Source of the DNA: Gracilibacter sp. BRH_c7a
GTDB taxonomy: Bacteria > Bacillota > Desulfitobacteriia > Desulfitobacteriales > Syntrophobotulaceae
NCBI GenBank assembly: GCA_001516055.1
Contig: LOEZ01000023.1
Location: 1-37,123, forward strand
Direction: 5' to 3'
Length of the DNA: 37,123 nucleotides
A program made the position numbers and the translations under genes. This document shows, one piece after another, positions 1,562 through 30,159 of the stretch. Every line of letters begins with the position of its first letter. Position 1 is the stretch's first letter. Below the pieces are notes generated by a model, which worked only from the letters and a program-made list of their open reading frames with translations, did not search any database and had not been told where the DNA came from.

Positions 1562-1590
1562 TTGAACTAAAACTATATAAATAGTATAAT
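1562..1590 (+). promoter_or_regulatory. Sigma-A-type promoter of the HesB-like selenoprotein gene
   Basis: TTGAAC (1562-1567) and a perfect TATAAT (1585-1590) are separated by 17 bases. The predicted transcription start falls near 1597, inside the palindrome that follows. Confidence 0.75.
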
Positions 1591-1595
1591 AGTTG

Positions 1596-1614
1596 TATAC
1601 CCAATAGGGGTATA
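1596..1614 (+). promoter_or_regulatory. Palindromic operator TATACCC-N5-GGGTATA (CsoR/CstR/FrmR-like)
   Basis: TATACCC (1596-1602) and GGGTATA (1608-1614) are perfect inverted repeats around AATAG. The site covers the predicted transcription start, the usual position for a repressor. A/T-flanked C and G tracts are typical of operators of the CsoR/RcnR family (copper, nickel, persulfide or formaldehyde sensors). The same palindrome lies in the promoter of the FmdB-type gene at 30100-30118. No regulator gene of this family is in the window, so the family assignment is inference. Confidence 0.7.
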
Positions 1615-1630
1615 AGGAGGTGAGCATTAG

Positions 1631-1918
1631 TTGAAGTTAATCATCACGGAGAAAGCCAAAAACATCATTCATAAAAAAGGAAACATTTTTACCATAAGTT
1701 ATGTAGCTTGTGCCAGTTGAGCAGGAACTTATAAAAGCCTCTGGTCAGGGGCAAGTTCAAAATCTGAAAATGAGCAAGATTATCTTAAGTATGAGCATGA
1801 GGGAATTACTGTTTTTATTCACAAGCTCCTAGAAACATCCGATAGCTTAGAAATAGACTTGAAATCTAACCTGCCTCTCTTTGGACCGGCATTTAATGTA
1901 AAAGGAATCTTTGTTTAA
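1631..1918 (+). CDS. HesB/IscA-like selenoprotein with in-frame UGA (Sec30)
   Basis: The 95-residue frame runs from TTG (1631) to TAA (1916-1918), interrupted only by TGA at 1718-1720, codon 30. Reading UGA as selenocysteine gives VACASUAGTYKS, a CxxU redox motif with Cys27 and Sec30. The fold looks like the HesB/IscA family: N-terminal ITEKAKNIIHKKG, a beta strand before the motif, EHEGITVFI in the middle, and a C-terminal FGPAFNV. The second Cys cluster of true IscA scaffolds is missing, so this is a HesB-like redox protein and not a standard Fe-S carrier. HesB-like selenoproteins are a known bacterial family. A ribosome site AAGGAGG (1614-1620) lies 10 bases before TTG. A bacterial SECIS hairpin follows the UGA, and a sigma-A promoter with an operator precedes the gene. 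Ordinary gene callers would split or miss it. Confidence 0.88.
1718..1758 (+). promoter_or_regulatory. Bacterial SECIS element in the HesB-like gene
   Basis: After the UGA (1718-1720), GAACTT (1725-1730) pairs perfectly with AAGTTC (1753-1758). Inside it GCCTCT (1737-1742) pairs with AGGGGC (1747-1752, one G-U). The apical loop is GGUC. A six-base bulge lies on the 5' side. The loop starts 22 nt after the UGA. A GGUC apical loop is also present in the E. coli fdhF SECIS, where loop G and U contact SelB. Confidence 0.85.
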
Positions 1919-1939
1919 AAAGCCTGCAAGGGCTTTTTT
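1917..1939. terminator. Bidirectional terminator between the HesB-like gene and the phosphatase gene
   Basis: AAAAAGCC (1917-1924) and GGCTTTTTT (1931-1939) form a short hairpin with A and T runs on either side. It overlaps the TAA of the selenoprotein gene and serves two convergent genes. Confidence 0.7.
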
Positions 1940-29826: not shown

Positions 29827-29874
29827 TTAATTTTTAATAGGAACACACGGTTCCTTAAATTAACATCCAGCTCA
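29827..29874 (-). promoter_or_regulatory. Candidate bacterial SECIS element at the end of the FmdB-type gene
   Basis: Read on the minus strand after the UGA (29872-29874), a seven-base outer stem (UUAAUUU, 29857-29863, with AAAUUAA near 29827-29835) and a six-base inner stem (AGGAAC at 29850-29855, GUUCCU at 29839-29844) enclose the loop CGUGU. The loop starts 22 nt after the UGA, the same distance as in the HesB-like gene, and has G in its second position, meeting usual bSECIS rules. Confidence 0.6.
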
Positions 29875-30066
29875 GCCAAAGCCAGAACCAGATTTAGAAG
29901 AAACTGTATTACCACTTTTGCTGCCACCAATATTAACTGACGTAAATCGTTGGCTAATATCGTTGCTTGCACATTTTGGGCAGATCTGTTTATCCTTGGC
30001 ACTGATACTACAAAAAACAGAGAATTTGTGGCCACACTCTTTGCAGACCAGATCATAACTAGGCAT
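29860..30066 (-). CDS. FmdB-type zinc-ribbon protein, probable selenoprotein ending in Sec-Ala-Gly-Cys
   Basis: The N terminus MPSYDLVCKECGHKF is the FmdB/CxxC zinc-ribbon signature, with knuckles at Cys8/Cys11 and Cys29/Cys32, followed by a Gly/Ser-rich tail. The frame meets TGA at codon 65 and then reads Ala-Gly-Cys-TAA. Treating the UGA as selenocysteine gives a 68-residue protein ending GFG-Sec-AGC, a UxxC redox pair; many FmdB proteins have Cys-rich tails there. Support: a SECIS-like hairpin, the same GCNGGA after UGA as in the HesB-like gene, and a shared operator. If UGA were a stop, the protein would end at GSGFG after 64 residues. GAGGAG lies nine bases before ATG 30066. A longer frame to 30159 would run over the promoter and is rejected. 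Confidence 0.72.
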
Positions 30067-30091
30067 CTCAACAACTCCTCTTGGAAAGGTG

Positions 30092-30126
30092 ACACACCAT
30101 ATACCCCGTCTGGGTATATGGTGTGT
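30092..30126 (-). promoter_or_regulatory. Operator of the FmdB-type gene, perfect inverted repeat with TATACCC-N5-GGGTATA core
   Basis: Fifteen-base perfect arms (30092-30106 and 30112-30126) surround five bases. The core (30100-30118) is identical in arms and spacing to the operator at 1596-1614. It begins just after the -10 box. Read towards each gene, both sites have the form TATACCC-A-N3-GGGGTATA. No U run follows, so it is not a terminator for lutC. Confidence 0.72.
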
Positions 30127-30130
30127 CTTT

Positions 30131-30159
30131 AATATATTATAACCTAATATTTTTGTCAA
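30131..30159 (-). promoter_or_regulatory. Sigma-A promoter of the FmdB-type gene
   Basis: On the minus strand a perfect TTGACA (30154-30159) and TATATT (30131-30136) are 17 bases apart. Transcription would begin at the edge of the palindrome, separate from lutABC. Confidence 0.75.

Follow-up and report, generated by a model that had tools for sequence, protein, structure and literature searches.

The DNA that was analysed (hereafter the window) is a stretch of 37,123 nucleotides from Gracilibacter sp. BRH_c7a, and the features of the locus considered here are listed in Table 1. The central feature is a reading frame of 95 codons whose sole internal stop is a TGA at codon 30, with a cysteine codon three residues ahead of it. 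When the UGA is read as selenocysteine (Sec), the motif becomes CASUAG. A preliminary description of this DNA had reported the frame, the UGA, the cysteine codon and a hairpin with a GGUC loop, and each of them is borne out in the sequence. The chance that the 65 codons 3' of the UGA would stay open is about 2% at the base composition of the window. As argued below from sequence comparison, the coding part without the stop codon, window 1631-1915, is almost certainly a real selenoprotein gene.

Table 1. Features of the selenoprotein locus, in window coordinates
Feature	Position	Strand	Remarks
Promoter-like site, -35 TTGAAC / 17 nt / -10 TATAAT	1562..1590	+	consensus scan, 10/12 matches
CsoR type-2-like operator (predicted), GTATACCCAATAGGGGTATA	1595..1614	+	palindrome just 3' of the -10 box
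Ribosome binding site, AGGAGGTGA	1615..1623	+	7 nt 5' of the TTG start, from sequence
Predicted selenoprotein gene, NF041239 CC/Se motif family	1631..1918	+	95 aa, TTG start, TAA stop
Cys27 codon TGT of the CxxU motif	1709..1711	+	
Predicted Sec30 codon UGA	1718..1720	+	TGA at the same column in close relatives
Predicted bacterial SECIS apical hairpin, GCCUCU-GGUC-AGGGGC	1737..1752	+	loop 22 nt 3' of the UGA
Terminator-like hairpin	1917..1938	.	between the convergent selenoprotein and inositol monophosphatase genes

The flanking signals that the preliminary description took to complete the gene, namely a promoter, an operator palindrome, a ribosome site and a terminator, are likewise all present, with the qualification that 1.7 promoter-like sites of this grade are expected by chance in the region, which is about as many as are seen. 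The terminator-like hairpin has a folding energy of -9.8 kcal/mol (z -2.3), and a similar one lies 3' of the gene from the same genus. In some relatives, genes for inositol monophosphatase and for EcsC/tautomerase are again found close by, but this neighbourhood gave no functional lead.

Decoding of the in-frame UGA

The genome possesses the Sec machinery on which a selenoprotein reading depends, as the preliminary description had anticipated. Genes for selA, selB and selD are present, each scoring over its NCBIfam cut-off, together with a tRNA-Sec that has a TCA anticodon. The selD match of this genome has one in-frame TGA of its own. With these components, the UGA at codon 30 would be read as Sec by SelB and tRNA-Sec, steered by the hairpin with the GGUC loop acting as a SECIS element.

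Bacterial SECIS elements are described as having a loop of 3-9 nt with a G in the first two loop positions, a stem of 4-16 bp, a minimum free energy of -7.5 kcal/mol or lower and a spacing of 16-37 nt from the UGA (PMC13188914). The hairpin at the window locus satisfies every limit of this published model, with a 6-bp apical stem, a 4-nt loop, and a folding energy of -8.6 kcal/mol for the apical part alone and -12.1 kcal/mol for a 43-nt piece that includes the lower stem. By itself the hairpin stands out only moderately (z about -1.8) and is not decisive, and an Rfam search over the gene region returned nothing above chance. The core CUC(U/A)GG(U/G)C(A/U)G occupies the same position in 15 close relatives, where the named helix is paired in 88.9% of cells, as against at most 61% for slid partners. 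Covariation of the hairpin within these 15 relatives is no better than in shuffled alignments, probably because the hairpin also codes for a conserved LWSEA segment. A sister clade of 13 genes has a different hairpin, of the ACCUGC-CGUGUAU-GCAGGU type, with the loop G 24 nt 3' of the UGA. This hairpin does covary, being paired in 96.2% of cells with eight double changes, a result reached by 1 of 500 shuffles. No consistent hairpin was found at the SECIS position of homologues with Cys in place of Sec.

The decisive evidence for the gene is comparative and does not come from the hairpin alone. When the close-clade alignment was used as the query of genome contigs, relatives were found in Gracilibacter sp., Candidatus Dichloromethanomonas elyunquensis, other Peptococcaceae, Desulfosporosinus, Clostridium simiarum and Alkalibacter mobilis; a single-protein query of genome contigs and a search of plasmids each gave no match. 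These relatives are 74% to 33% identical and have TGA at the same column. In a comparison with the gene from the same genus, the 65 codons 3' of the UGA have a dS of 0.84 and a dN of 0.19 (dN/dS about 0.23), and the other two frames of this segment have no such contrast. More widely, the NF041239 family to which the gene is assigned below was found in 68 of the 150 relatives searched, with one TGA in many of the matches, and in none of 14 control genomes. Members of the family have TGA, TGC or TGT at the Sec column, indicating exchange between Sec and Cys, and the Cys homologues suggested in the preliminary description as a check on the gene therefore exist. One relative (L060, G004:C10) has two tandem copies of the gene, of which one has TTA (Leu) in place of TGA and keeps a SECIS-like hairpin; it is possible that this copy is a relic of a recent loss of Sec.

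Two other readings of the UGA have to be set against selenocysteine. That it is an ordinary stop, leaving a 29-residue peptide or a decaying pseudogene, agrees with table-11 gene finding, which ends the gene at the UGA. This reading is very improbable given that relatives with as little as about 33-40% identity retain the UGA at that codon, that synonymous changes are favoured 3' of it, and that the genome has Sec machinery and the hairpin is conserved. A code in which UGA specifies another amino acid throughout the genome would account for the open frame, and for nothing else. TGA ends 9 of the 29 long frames of the window and is thus a normal stop, on which ground a genome-wide altered code was rejected; the tRNA with the TCA anticodon is moreover typed as tRNA-Sec, and the probability left to this alternative is close to nil. 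Selenoprotein status, by contrast, is supported by the presence of selA, selB, selD and tRNA-Sec, the retention of the UGA in relatives and the amino-acid constraint downstream of it. The preliminary description is thus upheld as to the selenoprotein gene, its CxxU motif and its SECIS with a GGUC loop.

Family membership and predicted fold

The window protein matches NF041239, the 'CC/Se motif family (seleno)protein' model, with 42.2 bits against a cut-off of 40, a margin of just 2 bits, and residues 2-81 align with positions 2-81 of the 91 in the profile. A six-frame search of the genome with the same model gave 35 bits, which is below the cut-off of 40. NF041239 corresponds to an uncharacterised CxxU family first predicted in Moorella thermoacetica, and a 2026 review catalogues it separately from the HesB-like selenoproteins (TIGR01911), which are listed there with the motif UxGP (PMC13188914, Table 1). 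A weak second NF041239 candidate occurs in the same genome (L069, G000:C88:37942-38232); it has one in-frame TGA and the sequence GGUKC, scores below the cut-off, and no simple SECIS hairpin was found in it.

The preliminary description had called the protein HesB-like. At the level of family this does not hold, as the score against NF038090 is 12.8 bits with a cut-off of 85, TIGR01911 gave no match up to an E value of 10, and the UxGP motif is absent. This genome does have a HesB-like selenoprotein candidate, but at another locus, C16:29440-29724; that gene carries GYGUGGP (a UGGP motif) and scores 50.5 bits with TIGR01911, below the cut-off of 66.35, and 62.7 bits with the broader TIGR00049, over its cut-off of 58.8. 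In the aligned stretch of that candidate (L137:441-725, - strand), the C-terminal tail with Cys that its relatives have is missing. The preliminary description had also regarded the window gene as overlooked. This is partly right, in that standard gene-calling programs would fail to find it, but its family is covered by a curated NCBI model and appears in the current catalogue.

Where the term HesB-like does apply is the predicted fold. An AlphaFold model built with 15 aligned sequences has a mean pLDDT of 93.4, and a Foldseek search of the PDB with this model placed SufA and IscA on top (best E 2.7e-4, probability 1.00), every one of the best eight matches being SufA, IscA or a related protein. 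The VIA structural aligner gave Z scores of up to 7.7 over 84 residues with an rmsd of 3.5; a Z below 8 is ambiguous by itself, and nearly all of the rows were IscA/SufA/HesB-type proteins. An independent profile comparison with HesB selenoproteins (P 2.2e-5) placed the Sec on the Cys/Sec column of HesB. Searches by sequence were negative, with no match between Pfam HesB and the window protein up to an E value of 10 and none between PDB chains and the family profile. The model thus predicts a HesB/IscA (A-type carrier) fold for the window protein. That the gene encodes a selenoprotein, belongs to NF041239 and has an IscA-type fold is, as a joint claim, highly probable; Sec insertion itself we infer from gene and genome sequence.

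In A-type carriers a C-terminal pair of cysteines, together with the first Cys, holds the cluster. The window protein has no Cys after residue 30, which confirms the loss of the C-terminal pair that the preliminary description had pointed out, and the pair is missing throughout the family alignment. A classical role in carrying Fe-S clusters is unlikely for this reason. The preliminary description had gone further and read the loss as a sign of a redox role instead of Fe-S assembly. A redox argument that draws on the CxxU motif is weakened by the relatives. All seven genomes that carry the clade within the taxonomic family of the window have Cys27 in their Sec copies, and in the Desulfosporosinus sister clade it is replaced, mostly by Tyr, with the Sec retained. 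A relative from Desulfosporosinus sp. PR (L063 / L117) has a Cys two residues ahead of the Sec (CxU), in contrast to the Tyr that prevails in the CxxU region of its clade. The Sec thus seems to persist as its partner Cys shifts position or disappears, and Cys27 is likely a resolving residue in the window's group and not a requirement of the family. As the Sec can outlast the partner Cys of CxxU, the motif alone is unfit to assign thioredoxin-like chemistry.

A CsoR-type operator and the candidate function

The palindrome that separates the -10 box from the ribosome site resembles the operators of CsoR-family repressors, for which a type-2 consensus, ATATACCCCTNAGGGGTATAT, has been published (PMC3902906). 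At 1598-1612 the sequence TACCCAATAGGGGTA has the type-2 form, with TAC/GTA dyads flanking the G-tracts, and is close to that consensus. The pattern ATACC(C/T)N4GGGGTAT occurs about 30-50 nt 5' of the start in all seven family-level genomes that carry the gene clade. It was not seen upstream of the genes of the Desulfosporosinus relatives, most of which have lost Cys27 as well.

In this genome the strict form of the operator pattern has seven sites, as against none for the reversed control, and a relaxed form has 14 as against 14; with no enrichment of the relaxed form, the candidate regulon rests on the strict one. The loci with strict sites are those of the selenoprotein gene, csoR-trxA, two rhodanese loci (in the first, a DUF1847-rhodanese gene lies on the operator's other side), an SBF/ACR3-like transporter, an ArsM-like methyltransferase and an FmdB-type gene. 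At the second rhodanese locus the operator (L090, G000:C77:23774-23790) is located between a rhodanese gene and a divergent gene for SelO, a protein adenylyltransferase. The FmdB-type site is a second operator within the window itself, at 30101-30117 (- strand), at the start of a gene for an FmdB-family zinc-ribbon protein (29872-30159, - strand). Among relatives, strict operators were seen at small ferredoxin-like 4Fe-4S genes (L074, L078, L079, L085 and L089), a recurring candidate target.

Three CsoR paralogues (PF02583) are encoded in the genome, and only the one linked to trxA has a site in its own promoter region; none was found at the paralogue beside a copper-ATPase-like gene. Since it is the sole paralogue with such a site, we infer from the sequence that the trxA-linked CsoR controls the selenoprotein gene. 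This regulator (G000:C7:39463-39696) is a member of PF02583, the family of metal-sensitive repressors, and has retained Cys-His-Cys at the positions usual for copper CsoR, so a copper or other soft-metal signal is possible. The rhodanese and thioredoxin genes among those that share the site instead indicate sulfane sulfur. The persulfide sensor CstR frequently has rhodaneses among its targets (PMC10318464).

A tentative reading of these observations, which falls short of even confidence, is that the protein handles sulfane sulfur or a related soft ligand under CsoR control. A repressor of the CsoR family, sitting on the operator 3' of the -10 box, would probably block transcription, and repression would be lifted jointly with that of csoR-trxA, the rhodanese and the other genes once levels of sulfane sulfur (persulfides) or of a soft metal increase. 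Sec30, aided by Cys27, would most likely act as a reactive selenol, a role that is suggested by the lack of the C-terminal Cys pair of Fe-S carriers. What the protein handles would most likely be sulfane sulfur or some related soft ligand. Sec30 would then form a selenosulfide, to be resolved by Cys27 or thioredoxin. In its fullest form, which is held at the lower end of this tentative range, the proposal is that an A-type-carrier fold devoid of Fe-S chemistry has turned into a selenol-based handler of persulfides or soft metals, induced through CsoR within a small, dispersed thioredoxin/rhodanese/selenoprotein regulon.

Two alternatives bear on this proposal. The protein could be a classical A-type (IscA/HesB) Fe-S carrier or scaffold in which Sec replaces one Cys, as its IscA/SufA fold and the position of the Sec on the conserved Cys column would allow; that is quite improbable, given the family-wide absence of the C-terminal Cys pair and the separate HesB-like selenoprotein gene in the same genome. 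A binding protein for copper or another soft metal or metalloid is a stronger candidate, if still an unlikely one. The CsoR-type repressor would then sense Cu(I) or a metalloid, and Sec30 and Cys27 would chelate it. The family of the regulator and its retained Cys-His-Cys favour this alternative, as do the fit of the operator to the copper CsoR type-2 consensus (PMC3902906), the ArsM-like methyltransferase and SBF/ACR3-like transporter that share the site, and the mention of Sec as a possible metal ligand in other families (PMC13188914). Metal binding is harder to reconcile with the copper-ATPase-like gene, which adjoins a different CsoR paralogue where no such operator was found, and with the thioredoxin and several rhodaneses among the shared genes.

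Comparison with known systems

Many of the Firmicutes relatives searched carry the NF041239 family, which has no known function. The family itself is catalogued; what is new is the fold assignment of this member and its regulatory context, for which no report was found among the open-licence papers searched. This member offers two handles. The first is its confidently predicted IscA-type fold, in which Sec occupies the former cluster-ligand position, and the second is the conserved operator of CsoR type that its gene shares with thioredoxin and rhodanese genes. A role in handling persulfides or soft metals would, if true, be the first function for the family.

The protein resembles other members of NF041239 in matching the profile over most of its length, in its CxxU motif and in the Sec/Cys exchange at the same column, and its gene resembles theirs in having the SECIS G 22-24 nt 3' of the UGA. 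It differs from them in belonging to a divergent subclade with the LWSEA segment after the Sec and in having a GGUC loop instead of one of the CGUG type, and the CsoR-type operator sets the gene's own taxonomic family apart within NF041239. With the HesB-like selenoproteins (TIGR01911, NF038090) the protein shares the predicted fold and the location of Sec on the first conserved Cys column; it has neither UxGP nor a family-level HMM match, and the genome has a separate gene of that kind. The A-type Fe-S carriers IscA and SufA are alike in predicted fold, and the window protein differs from them in lacking the C-terminal Cys pair and in being 9-20% identical to them in alignments. No report of a link between CsoR and a selenoprotein was found among the open-licence papers searched. 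The candidate regulon is similar to those of CsoR and CstR in its type-2-like ATACCCN4GGGGTAT sites and in the csoR-trxA and rhodanese genes that carry the same site, and it differs from them in that a selenoprotein appears here as a predicted target.
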